From: a virus
DNA length: 33,703 nt
Strand: one strand, 5' to 3'
IMG/VR virus record: IMGVR_UViG_3300021976_000045
Coordinates: 1 to 33,703 of that record
Below, one piece after another: positions 6,341 to 32,674 of the stretch; the first letter of the stretch is position 1, and each line of letters begins with the position of its first letter. The notes beneath the pieces are model-generated. The model was not told the origin of the DNA, made no database searches, and saw only the letters and a program-made list of their open reading frames with translations. The position numbers and the translations under genes are program-made.

Positions 6341-6357
6341 TCACAACTCGCGGGTTG
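6341..6357. repeat. 17-bp intergenic repeat, copy 2 (before head-protein block)
   Basis: Identical to the copy at 1511-1527, and again in the upstream region of a minus-strand structural gene. It also lies just before the inserted HNH endonuclease gene. The downstream minus-strand sequence shares an imperfect CTCGCTACCATTCGCCC-like segment with copy 1. This suggests a duplicated leader or promoter element. Confidence 0.75.
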
Positions 6358-6414
6358 AATTCGCGGTGCGTGTGGCTGACAATCAAGAGCATCAGGGCGC
6401 ACCAGGAGCGGGGC

Positions 6415-6837
6415 ATGACCGGTTGCATCGAGTGGGGCAAAAGTATCAAGGACAATGGCTACGGCCAAGCTTATATAAACGGCAAAGCTATCGGCGCGCA
6501 TCGCCTAGCATGGCAGCGTGAACATGGAGAAATACCGCATGGGCTTGATGTTTGCCACCGGTGCGATAACCGCTCATGCGTCAATATAGAGCATCTATTC
6601 TTGGGAACGCGCAAGGCAAACATGATGGACGCTACGTCAAAACAACGGCACGCTCACGGGCACACAAGCTATGCAAAAATTAGCGAGCAAACGGCTGTTA
6701 GGATAAAAATCCTTACTGATGTCGTCGGTCCCAGGAAACTGGGCCGGTGGCTAGGATTGAGTCCCGGCCATGTTCACGCCATCATGCATGGTACACGCTG
6801 GTCACACATCACCATGGCAACACGTTATGGATTCTAG
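6415..6837 (+). CDS. HNH homing-type endonuclease
   Basis: 140 residues from an ATG with AGGAG 6 nt upstream. The N-terminal half is a compact HNH (HNH_3-like) nuclease: [12 protein letters not shown], then [11 protein letters not shown] with the catalytic His, then [11 protein letters not shown] with the Asn and second His. The cysteine pair in CHRC and the later C-x-N-x-x-H are typical of free-standing phage HNH enzymes that nick DNA and spread by homing. The C-terminal third (RVKILTD-like helix, [20 protein letters not shown]) looks like a helix-turn-helix DNA-recognition segment. It runs against the surrounding late operon, which suggests later insertion. Confidence 0.9.
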
Positions 6838-13469: not shown

Positions 13470-13667
13470 TCATGCCCTCACCCAAATCGCCGGCCATCGC
13501 CCGCGGCACTTGTGCAACGGGCGCACCTTGTTCGATCGCTTCGCCATATGGTGCACTCTCGCGTAATTGAGCCGTGCATTGGCCTGGTGCAGCGAAATGT
13601 CGAGCATCGCTGCAAATTCGGACACGGTTGCCGGCAGGCAATCTAGCCATTTGAGTGCGAGGGTCAT
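13470..13667 (-). CDS. Small winged-helix-like protein
   Basis: 65 residues, starting with an ATG that overlaps the DUF1937 stop (ATGA). ATVSEFAAMLDISLHQANAR followed by LNYARVHHMAKR resembles a short helix-turn-helix used by small phage proteins that choose or modulate transcription. It has a basic C-terminus (RPLHKCRGRWPAIWVRA). Function not established. Confidence 0.55.
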   Translation of the reverse strand: MTLALKWLDCLPATVSEFAAMLDISLHQANARLNYARVHHMAKRSNKVRPLHKCRGRWPAIWVRA

Positions 13668-14005
13668 GGCGTTGGCTCCATATAATCCACGCTAACGCTC
13701 AGCCGTTTAGCCAGCGATATTTCCGCGGCTACGCCATTTGACGCTTCCCACCCATCAAGCATCAGCACGATTACTTTGTTCGAGTGCTCAATAAACGCGG
13801 TATCGTATTTGCACCAGAAATCCCACCCGAGAGGCAGATCACCAGCCTCTGCTATCGGGTGTGTGTGCGAGATTGGCGAATAGACAAGCAGACCCTTGCG
13901 CATCAGTTCGGCAGCCACTTTGTTGATTGCCTCGAAGCGAGCGACGCGTACGGCACGATCAGGGTGCGAATAGGGCCCAGCGAGGTATGTCAGTGGCCCG
14001 CTCAT
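13664..14005 (-). CDS. DUF1937 protein (nucleoside deoxyribosyltransferase-like)
   Basis: 113 residues from MSGPLTYLAGPYSHPDRAVR. The YLAGPYSH start, YSPISHTHPIA centre, WDFWCKYDTAF and VLMLDGWEASNGVAAEI blocks match the DUF1937 family, a Rossmann-like relative of nucleoside 2-deoxyribosyltransferases. The E in the AAEI block corresponds to the nucleophile region of that superfamily. It may act on nucleotides or a modified base, though the family is biochemically poorly known. A longer frame to 14131 would be Arg-rich and would overlap a better small gene. Confidence 0.85.
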   Translation of the reverse strand: MSGPLTYLAGPYSHPDRAVRVARFEAINKVAAELMRKGLLVYSPISHTHPIAEAGDLPLGWDFWCKYDTAFIEHSNKVIVLMLDGWEASNGVAAEISLAKRLSVSVDYMEPTP

Positions 14006-14021
14006 GCGATGATTCCCGGAT

Positions 14022-14144
14022 TCACTTGCGCACCCTGCCCGCCCGCTTCTTCGCTTTGCGCGCAATCGCTTTGCGGATAAGCTTGCTCGCAGTCTCGTCC
14101 AACGACACCGAGCCGCCCTGCTGAGCGGCACTACGTGAAATCAC
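14022..14144 (-). CDS. Small basic protein, 40 residues
   Basis: GTG start with a GCGAG-type ribosome site. The protein begins MISRSAAQQGGSVSLDETAS and ends with a strongly basic helix (KLIRKAIARKAKKRAGRVRK). It fills the gap between the RHH gene and DUF1937. Its charge suggests nucleic-acid binding. The evidence is position and composition only. Confidence 0.4.
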   Translation of the reverse strand: MISRSAAQQGGSVSLDETASKLIRKAIARKAKKRAGRVRK

Positions 14145-16303: not shown

Positions 16304-16834
16304 GTGGAGACCCCCGAAACCACCCCCGCCCCCTCCGCCGCGGCCGCCGCCCCCACCACCCAAATAAACCTGCGGCGCGACGAACTGACTTGGCGCCTGC
16401 TGTATGCGATGCGATTCGGCCGCCTGCAAGCGAACCTGTACGACCGCGTATCGAGCCTCCTCAGGTTCATCATATTCCTCGCTGGCACTTCTGCGTTCCT
16501 CGCCTTTCTGGGCAAAAATGACGCATTAATCGCTATCGCAGGACTCATTGGAGCCGCTGCGGCAGTTCTGGATTCCGTGAGTGACTTCGCCGGCAAGGCC
16601 GCGAAGACACGTGAAATGGCCAATCGTTTTGCCGCCATTAAACTTGAGTCCCACAGTCTGAGCGATGACGAACTCGAACGACGTCTCGATGCGCTGGAAG
16701 ATGCCCATATTCCAGAGATCGACTCACTACGCTTCGCTGCCTACAATGACGTATTGAAGGAAACCGGGCGCTATTCGGACAGCACTAAGTGCACCCTCAA
16801 TCCATTGCAGTGGATACTGGCGCAGATCGCTTAG
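16304..16834 (+). CDS. Two-TM membrane protein, SLATT-like
   Basis: 176 residues from a GTG. A Pro/Ala-rich start is followed by an amphipathic helix, two close TM helices (about 52-70 and 74-92) and a long cytosolic helical tail (AAKTREMANRFAAIKLESHS onward). Helix-2TM-helix with this tail resembles the SLATT domain, predicted to form pores in bacterial conflict systems. Family membership is tentative. It lies in the lysogeny operon between two operator clusters, the position lambda gives to rexB, so an exclusion role is an attractive inference. Confidence 0.65.
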   Translation: METPETTPAPSAAAAAPTTQINLRRDELTWRLLYAMRFGRLQANLYDRVSSLLRFIIFLAGTSAFLAFLGKNDALIAIAGLIGAAAAVLDSVSDFAGKAAKTREMANRFAAIKLESHSLSDDELERRLDALEDAHIPEIDSLRFAAYNDVLKETGRYSDSTKCTLNPLQWILAQIA

Positions 16835-25150: not shown

Positions 25151-25452
25151 CGCACATCGATGACTGGCTGGATAGCTACGAGCCTAAGACTGACGGCGAG
25201 CGCTTCGCCAAGAAATTTCTTGAGCATGCGCGCAGGCCAGCGGCAACTATGGATCATAAGTGGCTCGCCACCAATCCATTGTTCTGCACATATCAGGGCA
25301 AAAGGTATCGTTGTAACGGCGCTTCCAGATTAGGTGACGTGTGGCTGCACGATGATTTTACAAAGAGCTATGGCTATGTCCATCGGGTTGATGTAGCAGA
25401 GTGCTCTGAGTGGAGTGAGGGAGCGCAGGCGAAAGGCGGGACAGATGAGTGA
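25147..25452 (+). CDS. Hypothetical protein before the Thg1-like gene
   Basis: 101 residues. Acidic helix start (MTHIDDWLDSYEPKTDGERF), then a small beta-rich half (FCTYQGKRYRCNGASRLGDV, WLHDDFTKSYGYVHRVDVAE) rich in aromatics. Coupled upstream by a 4-base overlap and downstream by 8 bases with the Thg1-like gene. No family recognised. Confidence 0.6.
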   Translation: MTHIDDWLDSYEPKTDGERFAKKFLEHARRPAATMDHKWLATNPLFCTYQGKRYRCNGASRLGDVWLHDDFTKSYGYVHRVDVAECSEWSEGAQAKGGTDE

Positions 25453-26179
25453 CGACATCGGGGATCGGTTCAAAGGTTACGAGCGCGCATTCGACTACGC
25501 ATTGCCACGTCGGATACCCATGGTAATTCGGGTCGATGGGCGAGCATTTCACGGCATTAAACTCGACAAGCCGTTCGACAGTCTTTTTTTTGATCACATG
25601 GCGACCGTTGCTCAAGCCCTCTGCGAGGAAATCCAGGGCGCGGTGCTGGCCTATTTTCAGTCCGACGAGATATCTATAATCGTGAGAGACGACATGAGTT
25701 TGCAGTCTCAGCCTTGGGTTGGTAAGAGGCTGTCCAAAATACTCAGTCTGAGTGCGGCTATCGCAACCGGCACGTTCAATCAAGACTCCCCCTATGGATT
25801 GCGCCAGTTCGACAGCCGCGCATTTGTCGTTCCCGATCTGTCGGAGATCGTTAATTACTTGGTATGGCGCCAGCAGGACGCGACCCGGAATTCTGTCAGC
25901 ATGGCAGCCAGGGCGGTCTTTTCGCACAAGCAATGCAACCTTAAAACGACGCCTGAACTTCGGCAAATGCTGGAGGACGGGGGAAGCCCTTGGGAGCAGG
26001 CTCCCACTCATTTCAAGCGCGGTGCAGTGTGCAAGTCAATAACGGTCATAAAGCCAGTGCTTCAGACCGGAGAAACCTGCGAACGCAGCGAATGGGTAAT
26101 TGATCTTGAACCACCGGTATTCACGCAGCAACGCGAGTACGTAGAATCGCTGTATGAGAAGCAATCCAAGCCGGGCTGA
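25445..26179 (+). CDS. Thg1-like 3'-5' polymerase (TLP)
   Basis: 244 residues. Thg1 and its relatives add nucleotides to tRNA 5' ends in the 3'-to-5' direction. Seen here are the catalytic VIRVDGRAFHG (Asp31, Gly32), AYFQSDEISII (Asp74, Glu75), DSRAFVVPDLSEIVNYLVWR, QQDATRNSVSMAARAVFSHK and the late THFKRGAV block, all in family order and at family length. The eukaryotic tRNA-His HINN-type motif is replaced by RNSVSM, as in bacterial and archaeal TLPs that repair truncated tRNAs. No tRNA gene or RNA ligase is visible nearby. Last large gene of the early operon. Confidence 0.92.
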   Translation: MSDDIGDRFKGYERAFDYALPRRIPMVIRVDGRAFHGIKLDKPFDSLFFDHMATVAQALCEEIQGAVLAYFQSDEISIIVRDDMSLQSQPWVGKRLSKILSLSAAIATGTFNQDSPYGLRQFDSRAFVVPDLSEIVNYLVWRQQDATRNSVSMAARAVFSHKQCNLKTTPELRQMLEDGGSPWEQAPTHFKRGAVCKSITVIKPVLQTGETCERSEWVIDLEPPVFTQQREYVESLYEKQSKPG

Positions 26180-28231: not shown

Positions 28232-28465
28232 ATGAAACGAGTTGCAGACCTCATAACTGAACTTCAGAAGTTCCCGCCAGATGCGCTCGCATACGCTTAC
28301 GAGGGTGAAGTTCGGGGAATTATTGTAGTGGCCAAAGATATAGAGATTTCAAAAGGCGGAGGACGGGGCCGCAGGGAACTCGGGTACGTCCCGGCCGATG
28401 AAGGCGATCAGGATGACGGTCCAGCCGAAATATACGAGTTACCGTGGGATTCGTTTAGGGCTTAA
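28232..28465 (+). CDS. Small conserved-type phage protein
   Basis: 77 residues from ATG 28232. MKRVADLITELQKFPPDALA is a widespread beginning of small phage proteins, followed by YEGEVRGIIVVAKDIEISKG and a Gly/Asp-rich end. The first part is probably a small alpha/beta unit. Converges with the minus-strand 28455 gene by 11 bases. Confidence 0.6.
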   Translation: MKRVADLITELQKFPPDALAYAYEGEVRGIIVVAKDIEISKGGGRGRRELGYVPADEGDQDDGPAEIYELPWDSFRA

Positions 28466-28763
28466 CCTTCTGCTGGCGCAATAGCACGTCCAGTTTCGAA
28501 TTCAAATCTTTCAATTCCTCGTTGCGCTTGTCGATCTCGCGCGACGTCTCGATGCGCTTCATGGTCGCGGTATTCTCTACCGCTGGATCGTTGGACTTCT
28601 GCCCCGCCTGCCAGTAAAGCAACGCCGCCAGGATCGCGCTGGTTATCCCTACGAGGTTGACCGCAATCTTGCTTAGCGACTCCATGAGCGGCGGGCCGTC
28701 CGTTTTGCGCCGGCCGAGCGTGCGCGGCTTCAATGTTTTTTTAACCAATGGGCGCTGTCGCAT
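28455..28763 (-). CDS. TM/coiled-coil membrane protein
   Basis: 102 residues: a basic cytoplasmic start (MRQRPLVKKTLKPRTLGRRK), one TM helix (VNLVGITSAILAALLYW, about 36-52) and a charged coiled coil (SREIDKRNEELKDLNSKLDV). The build resembles an inner-membrane spanin or a membrane adaptor. No lipoprotein partner is visible, so spanin is not claimed. It is the last gene of the cyclase/receiver cassette, starting as TAATG with its neighbour. Confidence 0.6.
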   Translation of the reverse strand: MRQRPLVKKTLKPRTLGRRKTDGPPLMESLSKIAVNLVGITSAILAALLYWQAGQKSNDPAVENTATMKRIETSREIDKRNEELKDLNSKLDVLLRQQKVKP

Positions 28764-28990
28764 TAGCGCGTCATGTCCACACGCGGCGGATAACCAATCA
28801 ACTGTATCTCGCCGTTGTTAGTCCCGCACTGCGTACACGTAACCTCGCCCATGACCAGCCCGGATTCTTTGATCGGGTAAGCGTCGAGCATGAAATCCTG
28901 CTTGCAGTGCGCGCATTGAATCTCCGCCCGCCACCGCGACAGTGAATGTTTAGTCGGCAACCACGCCTGAAAGGTGCGGGCGCTAATCAC
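28763..28990 (-). CDS. Zinc-ribbon protein, second of a pair
   Basis: 75 residues from a GTG overlapping the previous stop (GTGA). CAHC (about 26-29) and CTQC (about 51-54) give a four-Cys zinc ribbon, with a strand-turn core between. A longer frame to 29134 overlaps the other zinc-ribbon gene and was rejected. Nucleic-acid or protein binding is likely. Its specific target is unknown. Confidence 0.65.
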   Translation of the reverse strand: MISARTFQAWLPTKHSLSRWRAEIQCAHCKQDFMLDAYPIKESGLVMGEVTCTQCGTNNGEIQLIGYPPRVDMTR

Positions 28991-29202
28991 CAGCCATCCA
29001 ATATCATGTCGCCGACCTTGCGGTTGCAGTATGGGCAATAGATGATCGGCGTGACATGCCCCACGTATGGGAATTCCTCGCTGATCTCGTACAACGATAG
29101 GTTGAGGGTCGCGCCGCACAGCACATCCGGGCACTTTATGAGCGCGGTGCGCTTGCCGTTATAGCCTTCGATTACGGTGTAGCTGCGGGTTGTGATGGTC
29201 AT
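28987..29202 (-). CDS. Zinc-ribbon protein, first of a pair
   Basis: 71 residues: MTITTRSYTVIEGYNGKRTA, then KCPDVLCGATLNLSLYEISE and YCPYCNRKVGDM, forming CxxxxC plus CxxC, a ribbon-like metal site. Overlaps both neighbours by 4 bases. It and the next gene may be diverged duplicates or a two-part binding unit. Confidence 0.65.
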   Translation of the reverse strand: MTITTRSYTVIEGYNGKRTALIKCPDVLCGATLNLSLYEISEEFPYVGHVTPIIYCPYCNRKVGDMILDGW

Positions 29203-29354
29203 TTTTGCCTGGTGACAATCAAGCGCACCAATACATTGACTACGCGAGTCAGGTTGTCCAGCGCTACAACAATCGATCGATTCATGACCGCGATGTCTTT
29301 GCGCAGCAGGATCAGCTCAGCATCGGAAAACCTGGCCGGCCGCTCGTCGCTCAT
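29199..29354 (-). CDS. Small helical protein downstream of cyclase gene
   Basis: 51 residues from ATG 29354, which overlaps the cyclase stop as TGATG. MSDERPARFSDAELILLRKD leads into a mostly hydrophobic amphipathic helix (IVVALDNLTRVVNVLVRLIV). It could lie on the membrane or pair with the cyclase's anchor. A longer frame to 29384 lies inside the cyclase gene. Confidence 0.55.
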   Translation of the reverse strand: MSDERPARFSDAELILLRKDIAVMNRSIVVALDNLTRVVNVLVRLIVTRQK

Positions 29355-30091
29355 CAGCGCCCGAACAGAAAGTAGTACAGCCACATCAACGCTGCAACCG
29401 CCAGAAATATCAACAGCACCCGCGTACTAAACGAGTCGACGAATACAGTAGTAGTGGTTTCCTGCGCTCTACGATCAGCGTTCTTCGTTTCGAGTCTGCG
29501 TTCGATCTCCGGCTTGCGCACTGCTTTCTGGCGCTTGTCATGAGGTATAACGAACACGCCATCAGACTCAGCCCAAACGCTAAGACCGGAGATGCCTTCT
29601 AATTCTTCTTTAATGATAATCAGCTTATCCGCGTACCCAGCTTCGGTCAGCATGGCCAATATTGAAGGGGTAACAACCGTTTCTCCTTGCGGGCATTTGG
29701 CTACAATCCTGAACAGGTAATCGATCTCCCTACCCCTGGCGTGCTTAACCTTGAATTCGTCTTCGAATTCTTCATAAACGCCATATCCGATAGCGATTTT
29801 AAGGGCCAGTCTGTTGCCGCTTTTTGATCTGAAGTCGCTTTGAAACTTGACTGCCGCCCAATAATCAATGACAGCATGAACGCCACCCGTGAGCAGGATA
29901 GAATCTCCCGCCGCGGATCCAGGCGATACTTTCAAACCAGGGTCTCGGATACGCAGTTGCGAAACGCCGTAGTCGAGAGCGGCGATCACCATCTTGCTAC
30001 CCAGCAAGTCATCGTACAGAATCTTAGCCTCAGTGCTTCCAGCAACGTCGATTGCAATTAAAACCTGAGGCTCATTTACGACTGCTGACAC
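29354..30091 (-). CDS. Class III nucleotidyl-cyclase-like protein, C-terminal membrane anchor
   Basis: 245 residues, GTG start overlapping the receiver gene by 16 bases. VLIAIDVAGSTEAK has Asp15 at the first metal position, SAAGDSILLTGG has Asp63 at the second, LKIAIGYGVYEEF is the usual core strand, and ARGREIDYLFRIVAK carries Arg128 at the transition-state position with Asp124 where Asn is normal. CPQGETVVTPSI follows as in cyclases. Residues about 222-244 are one TM helix at the extreme C-terminus, so it is tail-anchored with the catalytic domain in the cytoplasm. Product and activity are unknown. It could be a degenerate, regulatory cyclase. Confidence 0.75.
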   Translation of the reverse strand: MSAVVNEPQVLIAIDVAGSTEAKILYDDLLGSKMVIAALDYGVSQLRIRDPGLKVSPGSAAGDSILLTGGVHAVIDYWAAVKFQSDFRSKSGNRLALKIAIGYGVYEEFEDEFKVKHARGREIDYLFRIVAKCPQGETVVTPSILAMLTEAGYADKLIIIKEELEGISGLSVWAESDGVFVIPHDKRQKAVRKPEIERRLETKNADRRAQETTTTVFVDSFSTRVLLIFLAVAALMWLYYFLFGR

Positions 30092-30447
30092 AACATCACC
30101 ACGAGCTTGGCAAAAATAACCGGGTCCAATGGTTTTATTAACAGATCATCGAAGCCCTCTGCCAGCGCTTCGTCCCTGCTGGCTTCGGTGTGGCCTGTGA
30201 TACCGATAACGGGTATGTGCCGCGTCTTCTCGTTACTTTTGACCGCTTTGACCACCGCAACACCGTTGCCGGTAATTAAATTTAGGTCCGTTAGAATGAC
30301 GCTGGGAATGACGGCTAGCGCTATCGCAATTCCTTCGTCGCCCCCCGAAGCAATCGTGACAGAGAATCCAGCCCTTTTAAGCAAGCGAGTCTGAATCTCT
30401 AGGTCGGTAAAGCTGTCCTCGATAAGGAGGACGCGGATTTGCTTCAT
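30076..30447 (-). CDS. Stand-alone CheY-like response regulator receiver
   Basis: 123 residues, a complete receiver domain with no output domain. All key residues are present: acidic pair Glu10-Asp11 (LLIEDS), phosphoacceptor Asp54 (VILTDLNL), Thr84 (IGITGH) and Lys105 (LIKPLD). It should accept phosphate from a histidine kinase, which is not encoded in this window, so a host kinase is likely. Its 3' end overlaps the cyclase-like gene, which suggests that phosphorylation may control the cyclase. Receiver genes are uncommon in phages. Confidence 0.93.
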   Translation of the reverse strand: MKQIRVLLIEDSFTDLEIQTRLLKRAGFSVTIASGGDEGIAIALAVIPSVILTDLNLITGNGVAVVKAVKSNEKTRHIPVIGITGHTEASRDEALAEGFDDLLIKPLDPVIFAKLVVMLCQQS

Positions 30448-30451
30448 TTCT

Positions 30452-30613
30452 CTAAATCTTGCCCAGCAGCATCAAAATTACAATGATCAGCAATATCAAG
30501 CCCAGGACACCACTAGGGCCATAACCCCAAGATGCGCTATGAGCGAACCATGGGCCGGTACCGCCCACACCAAACAGCAGCACCAGAATCAGTATGACGA
30601 GCCAGATATTCAT
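30452..30613 (-). CDS. DUF3309 small membrane protein
   Basis: 53 residues: a TM helix (MNIWLVILILVLLFGVGG), a short TGPWFAHSASWGYGPSG loop and a second TM helix (VLGLILLIIVILMLLGKI). The SWGYGPSGxLGLILL signature is diagnostic of DUF3309, a family found mostly in soil and plant-associated pseudomonadotal genomes. AAGGAAA precedes the ATG. It is directly upstream of the receiver gene, so a membrane or stress role linked to it is possible. Confidence 0.85.
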   Translation of the reverse strand: MNIWLVILILVLLFGVGGTGPWFAHSASWGYGPSGVLGLILLIIVILMLLGKI

Positions 30614-30625
30614 GATGATTTTTCC

Positions 30626-32674
30626 TTAACGGTAAAATTTAAGTATCAGCGTGCCGGTGCCGGTTGGAGAGCCGGCCACTGATTTGGTCAGGGTTACGCC
30701 ATCTGGATCGAGGGACGCACCTTCGAGTAAAGCTAAGTCCGAACCTCCTATAAGGAGCGCGCCGCAATGTGCCGTATCTGTCGTTACCTCGTCCGCTCCA
30801 GCCACCGCACGCGATTCCAGGCAGGAGCTGATTATTCCGTCGTATTCTCCGATGCTCCATGCCTTGCTGCCGTTGACGGCCGCACGCACCTCCACGAACT
30901 TGGGCGCGAATCCAGCGCCGGTTATGGCGAGTGCGCCGGTAGTCGAGACGTCGTAAGTGGCTGCGACGATCTTAAATTTCTTGTCTATCGCGTTGTACCA
31001 ACCCTCGCGGGCGGTCGTGCCGTTTACGCTACCCGGCAAATACGTCTCGCTCGAAGAACCCGTCGATATGCCGCCGCCGTCCTGACAGATGAAGCGCGGT
31101 CCGGTCGCGGTTCCGACGAAGGTGATATTGCCGATCGTGACAACGGAACTAGAACTAGACAATATGAAAGCCCCAGCCAGCGCCAGCACATTAGAAAGCG
31201 TAAAGGTATTCGCGGACACGGCCAGAATCACGGAGTTGTAGTCTGCGTAATCCATGTAGGTCATCGACGTGCAATCGGTCGTGAAGGCCTCAACCCGCTC
31301 GATGAAACTGTCGTATATGGAAATGAATCCATAGGTCGGATTGCCAGTCCCAATGTTCTTGCCAATATATAAGCGCGAACTCGCGTCGCTTTCAAACCAT
31401 GCGGTTTGACTGTCTAGCGTGAATCCCTCGGTCAACCATGCGGCATGCACTCCAACGCCTGTTACGCATATACTTGCGCCTGAATCAATAGTCGTTAAGC
31501 TGCAATCGGCTACGTTCCCGCGCAAGCACAATTCTTTGGTCGGCCAGCCGCCCTCATTCACGCCGATGACATTGCCGACAACAAGCGCCTCGCTGTAGGT
31601 GCCCGGCCCGACCTGCACAACAACCTTGTGATAGTTTGCGTCGATGTTGTCGCGCGCCCAATTCAGAGCGTGCTGAATAGTCAAAAACGCGCCACCGGCC
31701 GTGTTCAAAAGCCCGCTGTTGCTGTCCGATCCGTCAACGCGCACGTAGTAGGTACGATCGGCTGCCAGCCGTTCCCGCTGGAATGACGATTGCACCGGAT
31801 TCACGAGCACATAGCGGTCGATGGACACGTCGTACGCAAGCAACATGAGGAAATTAGCCCCCGGAATGTTGCCGGGTACCAAGGGCTGATTTGCGCCCTG
31901 CACGATCCGCTTTGCGGCAGTGCCGTCCGCTTTAAAGGTCGGTGTTGCCGTGGAGTTCGCGGACGCCGCTTCTACGAACAGAATGAGCGGACTCGTCAGC
32001 ACGGTTACGGCGGGCGTGAATGCGCCCAATATCGCATCCGACGTTCCTGTGGCCTGGCAGTAAGCCGGCGCTTGACGCTGCATTTCGGCTTTACTCGGAA
32101 CGGACAGATTGCTGCGCGTCGTTACAATGTTCGCAAAGTCAGCGCCGTTCGCTGCTTTCTGAACGGCTCTGCTGGCAACTCCGCTGATGGCAGCCTGCGC
32201 GTTGCTTTCGACCACGGTCCCGGTCGGCGTGTAAGCCACAGCGCTGGCGATGATGCCGAATAGTCCCGGGCTGATCACCATCCATTTGCCGGCCGCCTGG
32301 TCTGTGTCGAACACCCCGGAGGTATGATCCGTTAAGCACAGGTAGCTTCCGAACAATTGCTCGACCATGTCATATCGCGCGTAGACCGTCGCGGTCACCC
32401 AATTTCCGCGTGGATTCCAGCGTGAACCGGTGGCCGAACCGATCAAGGCCAAAACTGAGGTCGCGAGTGAGGCCGGCTTGACGATGCCGTCGCGCAGCTC
32501 CGTGTCGTCGCGCTGGATGATGGAGAGGTCAAAGAGCACACCTAACAAGGTCAGGGCAATGTTGGCCAGCTCGGCGTCCAATGCATCCGGGCGGATGGTC
32601 GAGCGCCCAGCCACTAAGGCCGTCGCCTCATCCTCGAAATTGGTGGTTGGCGAGTACGGTACGGGCTGAGCCAT
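30626..32674 (-). CDS. Tail spike or fibre with beta-helix domain
   Basis: 682 residues. The N-terminal 70 residues (SPTTNFEDEATALVAGRSTI, ELANIALTLLGVLFDLSIIQ) resemble the particle-binding end of podovirus fibres. A helical/beta linker follows. From about residue 305 a right-handed beta-helix begins (YYVRVDGSDSNSGLLNTAGG, KVVVQVGPGTYSEALVV), typical of pectate-lyase-like spikes that bind or cut surface polysaccharide. The end is a Gly/Thr/Ser-rich beta head. No clear active-site acids can be named. AAGGAAT precedes the ATG. Confidence 0.85.
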   Translation of the reverse strand: MAQPVPYSPTTNFEDEATALVAGRSTIRPDALDAELANIALTLLGVLFDLSIIQRDDTELRDGIVKPASLATSVLALIGSATGSRWNPRGNWVTATVYARYDMVEQLFGSYLCLTDHTSGVFDTDQAAGKWMVISPGLFGIIASAVAYTPTGTVVESNAQAAISGVASRAVQKAANGADFANIVTTRSNLSVPSKAEMQRQAPAYCQATGTSDAILGAFTPAVTVLTSPLILFVEAASANSTATPTFKADGTAAKRIVQGANQPLVPGNIPGANFLMLLAYDVSIDRYVLVNPVQSSFQRERLAADRTYYVRVDGSDSNSGLLNTAGGAFLTIQHALNWARDNIDANYHKVVVQVGPGTYSEALVVGNVIGVNEGGWPTKELCLRGNVADCSLTTIDSGASICVTGVGVHAAWLTEGFTLDSQTAWFESDASSRLYIGKNIGTGNPTYGFISIYDSFIERVEAFTTDCTSMTYMDYADYNSVILAVSANTFTLSNVLALAGAFILSSSSSVVTIGNITFVGTATGPRFICQDGGGISTGSSSETYLPGSVNGTTAREGWYNAIDKKFKIVAATYDVSTTGALAITGAGFAPKFVEVRAAVNGSKAWSIGEYDGIISSCLESRAVAGADEVTTDTAHCGALLIGGSDLALLEGASLDPDGVTLTKSVAGSPTGTGTLILKFYR

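Follow-up and report, generated by a model that had tools for sequence, protein, structure and literature searches.

Receivers and cyclases fused in one chain occur in cells. The Harvfovirus protein A0A3G5A2G3, annotated 'Response regulator', has a cyclase fold in BFVD, and in such fused receiver-cyclases, viral or cellular, a receiver and a class III cyclase function as a single unit. In tailed phages, stand-alone receivers have been described in Alteromonas phages V22 (gp30), A5 (gp11) and H4/4 (gp44), where they lie in the late region by tail-fibre and lysis-type genes (PMC10579305, PMC7289586). Class III-like cyclases are also found in Pycsar (PycC with PycTM or PycTIR) and among short GST-type enzymes such as Ma1120 and Rv1900c. 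Here we describe a cassette in the IMG/VR virus record IMGVR_UViG_3300021976_000045 (33,703 nucleotides (nt), all of which were analyzed and are called the window below). In this cassette, the gene for a stand-alone CheY-like receiver overlaps by 16 nt (30076-30091) the gene for a tail-anchored class III cyclase-like protein on the same strand. Each part is of a known kind, whereas their arrangement, seen here on one metagenomic contig, had no counterpart in the collections scanned. We tentatively read the two genes as one split signalling unit, in which the phage receiver governs the membrane-anchored cyclase-like protein.

The 33.7-kb record is fragmentary. It is classed as a virus record, and viral origin is backed by genes for TerL, portal, major head protein, RecE/RecT and an integrase. 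Both genes of the pair are minus-strand open reading frames (ORFs) that overlap, as a first-pass annotation, made from the letters alone, had reported. Codon usage of the phage scored each of the two ORFs best in its own frame. Upstream, a DUF3309 gene lies 12 nt downstream of a tail-fibre-like gene and is separated from the receiver gene by 4 nt, so that the spacing from fibre to cyclase (gaps of 12 and 4 nt, then the overlap) is as in a late operon. The G+C content of the cassette is 50-52%, slightly under the record average. Matches to a promoter consensus were no commoner in the cassette than in shuffles, and no cassette-specific promoter was identified. The first ~135 N-terminal residues of the fibre-like protein are kept in kin phages, with 44-49% identity to kin records G012 and G013. 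Two kin records share this N-terminal part and then carry other small genes, among them one-helix and endolysin-like genes by eye. Thus, the cassette sits in a variable slot between fibre and lysis genes. In one kin phage (L300, 9616-10281), an endolysin-like ORF was seen by eye just past the fibre region.

The receiver matched Pfam PF00072 (Response_reg) with 54.3 bits (cut-off 30.2) over residues 6-109 of 123. Its phosphotransfer set was complete by residue index (E10, D11, D54, T84 and K105), in agreement with the first-pass annotation. It fits a single-domain CheY-like response regulator, lacking an output domain. As also claimed, no kinase accompanies it: no HATPase_c domain was detected in the record, the same search being positive in 14/14 control genomes, and the partner histidine kinase that a two-component system would encode nearby was thus missing. 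Therefore, a host kinase is proposed as the driver.

The evidence for the cyclase-like protein came from motifs, alignments and a structural model. By residue index, it carries D15 and D63 at the metal sites, D124 at the Asn position and R128 as transition-state Arg. D15 and D63 are 48 residues apart, which agrees with the order and spacing of the two metal aspartates in class III cyclases. The first-pass annotation had named these residues and the Asn-to-Asp change correctly; its list was incomplete, as the base-recognition residues are lost as well. Comparison cyclases were drawn from plasmids (14), genomes (about 30), viral contigs (80 loci) and a cyanobacterium (one). The core motif tested required D..[GDN][FSYC][TS], GD[AGSE] and x...R in the proper order and spacing, and allowed any residue at the Asn position. 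It was satisfied by the phage protein, by 83/104 real cyclases and by 1/2,482 non-cyclase ORFs; shuffling the phage protein produced it by chance in 154/200,000 cases. With a profile built from 14 cyclases, the protein scored 10.1 bits and the highest-scoring of 200 shuffles 4.5 bits. In global alignment, the best Z was 8.0 for a cyanobacterial cyclase (L091), which had been chosen by a motif of the phage protein itself, followed by 4.5 for L291, which had not; the medians were 0.40 for cyclases and -0.14 for controls.

A MAFFT alignment of all 60 eligible cyclases, unselected, placed D63 on Asp and R128 on Arg in 60/60 cases each. D124 fell on Asn in 59 and on Asp in one, and D15 was unaligned. 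D15 falls on an Asp column in all rows of a second alignment (alignment A5), which is led by L091 and whose rows were retained because they keep the catalytic register. L091 likewise has Asp at the Asn position, but the pattern by which it was found demanded that Asp. By sequence, the cyclase-like protein matched no family in Pfam, PHROGs, PADLOC or NCBIfam, and nothing in the PDB; no Pfam family appeared at E up to 10, and the cut-off of PF00211 was not reached.

AlphaFold without an alignment was uninformative (predicted local distance difference test score, pLDDT, 43.3). With alignment A5, pLDDT rose to 72.6, and the model displayed the strand and helix order of a class III cyclase. Even though the rows were remote, block-mean pLDDT was 72-87 over residues 1-70 and 91-150. 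The top PDB match of the model was Ma1120 (5d0e; Z 18.8, root-mean-square deviation 2.4 over 160 residues), followed by Rv1900c (Z 18.6) and many further class III cyclases covering model residues 1-180. Together, the ordered motifs, the alignments to real cyclases and this model support the fold of a class III cyclase for residues 1-178. On the class III cyclase-like domain proposed by the first-pass annotation, alignment and model from a multiple sequence alignment (MSA) agree, with rows chosen to line up.

The protein has a single strongly hydrophobic segment, residues 225-243 (VLLIFLAVAALMWLYYFLF; mean Kyte-Doolittle 2.52), which stops two residues before the C-terminus. The model forms a helix over residues 189-243, with block-mean pLDDT of 82-95 over residues 221-245. 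The last helix, already proposed as membrane anchor, is the only such segment in the protein.

Compared with the short GST-type class III cyclases, the phage protein shares the D..GST, GD and R motifs with Ma1120, Rv1900c and the cyanobacterial L091, and the modelled fold over residues 1-178 with Ma1120 and Rv1900c; Ma1120 likewise has no catalytic Asn. It differs from them in having no sequence-level family match, a Ser/Ala/Ala/His pocket and a single C-terminal anchor. Class III cyclases were found on at least 552 IMG/VR contigs, which may hold host DNA, so that this is not a tally of genuine phage genes. These cyclases (CHASE2-type and others) likewise lie on contigs classed as viral, but a C-terminal membrane anchor was not seen in those examined: in 80 loci, no membrane helix followed the cyclase domain and helices, where present, preceded it. 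No receiver ORF was found in the flanking sequence retrieved with these 80 loci. Many cyclases of IMG/VR contigs (L185-L264) have N-terminal membrane helices and appear by eye to be of the CHASE2 type. Finally, in contrast to the fused receiver-cyclases, the tailed phage has two separate overlapping genes and anchors the cyclase in the membrane.

A second copy of the receiver-cyclase pair was not found in the collections scanned, so the search for the same pair in other phages that the first-pass annotation had proposed returned no match. The cyclase was absent from 15 kin or loosely related phage records, and the receiver family from the 8 such records searched. Exact 8-mer scans revealed no cyclase relatives in IMG/VR or GTDB genomes, and no receiver or fibre relatives in IMG/VR. 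A tblastn search with the cyclase-like protein in phages and plasmids gave nothing at E 0.1; weak plasmid matches that appeared when E was relaxed to 10 (Agrobacterium vitis, Photobacterium, Methylobacterium) lay out of context or in unrelated frames. The motif pattern had 0 matches in IMG/VR, and a search of IMG/VR by alignment to GST-type cyclases confirmed none. The motif scan of GTDB genomes returned at least 118 stretches, and among those listed only L091 was, judged at the pattern site, a true cyclase, the rest being due to chance. The sole match of a protein search in 754 genomes of two bacterial classes (L184) was antisense to an ABC-transporter operon.

How would a split signalling unit work? 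A host histidine kinase, or a small phosphodonor, would phosphorylate the free receiver of the phage. The receiver would then dock on the cyclase-like protein that the overlapping gene encodes and that sits anchored in the membrane, and docking might alter cyclase dimerisation and hence a local nucleotide signal, presumably in the late phase of infection. Such a unit would work like the fused receiver-cyclases of cells, split into two co-translated chains, with the C-terminal helix holding the cyclase at the membrane. The stronger form of this reading is unlikely on present evidence: that the phage encodes a nucleotidyl cyclase with a non-standard pocket, anchored in the membrane and gated by the receiver, which would turn a host-kinase signal into a (perhaps unusual) cyclic nucleotide at the membrane and so time lysis or alter host physiology. 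Phages do read small-molecule and stress cues of their hosts. If the pair cooperates, it would be an unusual route for a virus to tap host signalling. A two-protein phage unit that coupled a nucleotide messenger to the host phosphorelay network would add a new layer of control, and would tie together the receivers found by fibre and lysis genes in Alteromonas phages and the class III cyclases of viral contigs. Even with an inactive cyclase, the pair would give a concrete example of two-component signalling being hijacked by a phage.

Several observations weigh against a split signalling unit with a cyclase in it. The rows of alignment A5 are known cyclases picked so that catalytic residues line up, which biases the model to a cyclase fold; thus, the model indicates that the sequence is compatible with this fold and is not independent proof of it. 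A broader canonical profile (104 cyclases) scored the protein at 1.6 bits, not above shuffles. The base pocket is unusual throughout, as 96/104 cyclases retain Lys at the Ser59 site and 97/104 retain Phe at the Ala13 site. The pair was seen once, with no second copy that would speak for conservation of the pairing. Moreover, the stand-alone receivers of Alteromonas phages A5 and H4/4 lie between tail fibre and lysis genes with no cyclase alongside. Phages carrying only one of the two genes in random contexts had been named beforehand as evidence against a cassette; these two phages do have a lone receiver, but in a slot that is not random.

The pocket bears most directly on the first of two serious rivals. 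In this rival, which we consider somewhat unlikely, the protein next to the receiver has degenerated from a cyclase into a pseudo-enzyme that makes no messenger and serves as membrane dock for the receiver or for nucleotides; the pair would then be a decoy or a phosphate sink in a host two-component pathway. The Asn-Arg transition-state pair is incomplete, R128 being kept and Asn replaced by D124, whereas 98/104 cyclases retain the Asn. The base-pocket positions are also non-standard, with Ser59 for Lys, His117 for Asp/Thr, Ala13 and Ala61, and correspond to none of the Lys/Asp or Glu/Cys types of base recognition. These changes at catalytic and base positions would suit a pseudo-enzyme, as would the lack of a profile-level match to active cyclases. 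However, both metal aspartates and the transition-state Arg are kept at plausible spacing, which a dead domain need not do. In the active cyclase Ma1120, Ala occupies the position of the catalytic Asn, and a Dictyostelium guanylyl cyclase is known to have His at the second base site (PMC4215837). Thus, D124 does not exclude activity of the phage protein, although so unusual a pocket gives no guide to its substrate or activity.

The second serious rival is that receiver and membrane protein are separate cargo in the variable fibre-lysis slot. The receiver alone would rewire a host two-component pathway, as has been proposed for Alteromonas phages, and the role of the cyclase would be unrelated. 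We regard this as unlikely. It draws on the stand-alone receivers that phages A5, H4/4 and V22 carry in a similar slot, downstream of the tail fibre and by lysis-type genes (PMC10579305, PMC7289586), and on the other small genes held there by kin phages. These receivers are likewise receiver-only, but have no adjoining cyclase and are only distantly similar (26-27% by tblastn). The 16-nt overlap, on the other hand, suggests coupled translation of exactly the receiver and the cyclase; moreover, the receiver has no output domain, and its neighbour is of a type that cells regulate by receivers. The gene of phage A5 gp11 resembles the cassette in one further respect, as it overlaps the gene of a one-helix, coil-rich membrane protein. 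Receivers of unrelated Alteromonas phages (L295, 4004-4889; L296, 3507-4336) adjoin genes for small membrane proteins near lysis genes, which is a recurring arrangement.

A Pycsar-like defence module of a temperate phage, in which infection would trigger the cyclase and a membrane effector would kill the cell, is very unlikely. The integrase on the record, the class III-type fold common to PycC, the non-standard (non-purine-type) pocket and the phage context speak for it, and the product of 16304-16834, with two hydrophobic segments, looks effector-like by eye. PycC structures were not among the 50 PDB entries listed for the model, which carries no weight against PycC likeness. However, a search of the fragmentary record for a cyclic-nucleotide-binding domain (PF00027) gave no match at E up to 1 (12/14 controls positive), and no PADLOC model matched the cyclase-like protein, so that a link to Pycsar, which the first-pass annotation had mentioned as a known system, found no support. 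The base residues reported for PycC in clades B, D and E (Y50/D94/R97, F60/K104/F109 and F100/R142/Q144, respectively; PMC11224242) also differ from A13, S59 and A61 of the phage protein. The cassette further departs from Pycsar in having a receiver, a tail anchor on the cyclase and a phage-borne location, and its gaps of 12 and 4 nt after the fibre gene are in the style of a late operon.

That the second ORF is unrelated to cyclases, its motif match and alignment-driven model being coincidental, would fit the lack of any family-library or PDB sequence match and the failed single-sequence fold, but is hardly credible beside the ordered motifs, the global-alignment Z, the way three catalytic positions line up with 60 unselected cyclases and the pLDDT of 72-87 reached over residues 1-70 and 91-150 from remote rows.

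Features of the cassette and its surroundings, in window coordinates, with the evidence for each.
Feature	Position	Strand	Evidence
Tail-fibre-like protein	30626..32674	-	No Pfam match
DUF3309 small hydrophobic protein, 53 aa (amino acids)	30452..30613	-	PF11752, 51.9 bits (cut-off 22.3)
Stand-alone CheY-like receiver, 123 aa	30076..30447	-	PF00072, indexed residues, codon usage
Tail-anchored class III cyclase-like protein, 245 aa, GTG start	29354..30091	-	ORF, motif test, global alignment Z, MSA-based AlphaFold model and its PDB matches
Predicted cyclase homology domain, residues 1-178	29558..30091	-	Alignment to 46-60 cyclases; PDB cyclases match model range 1-180
C-terminal membrane helix (tail anchor), residues 225-243	29363..29419	-	Kyte-Doolittle, model helix
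Small ORF, 61 aa, overlapping the 3' end of the cyclase gene	29199..29384	-	ORF only; no family match
Zinc-ribbon-like ORF, 71 aa	28987..29202	-	PF02591, weak, under cut-off
Second zinc-ribbon-like ORF	28763..29134	-	PF13717, E=1.4e-4, under cut-off
102-aa protein, one membrane helix and charged helical tail	28455..28763	-	Lysis-accessory-like by eye

Among the neighbouring genes, the second zinc-ribbon-like ORF probably has its real start downstream of the annotated GTG. The 102-aa protein had weak matches only, to the Rz-like PHROG 1026 (E=0.16) and to SLATT_1 (E=0.023, under cut-off). No endolysin gene was recognised among the record proteins scanned. A search of INPHARED phage records for relatives of the DUF3309 protein gave no match, although the low-complexity filter of BLAST may mask relatives.

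Elsewhere in the window, the plus-strand gene at 16304-16834 encodes 176 aa with two hydrophobic segments and is SLATT-like by eye. It matched PHROG 11791 (function unknown) with E 3e-16 and had no Pfam match; its weak PADLOC match is probably due to chance. At 25415-26179 (+) lies a gene for a Thg1-like tRNA-His guanylyltransferase (PHROG 4717, E 2e-68; Pfam PF04446), although the 33.7-kb window yielded no tRNA gene. An HNH_3 homing-type endonuclease gene (PF13392) at 6355-6837 (+) is on the strand opposite to the late genes around it. Finally, the minus-strand gene at 13664-14131 encodes a DUF1937 or nucleoside 2-deoxyribosyltransferase-like protein.

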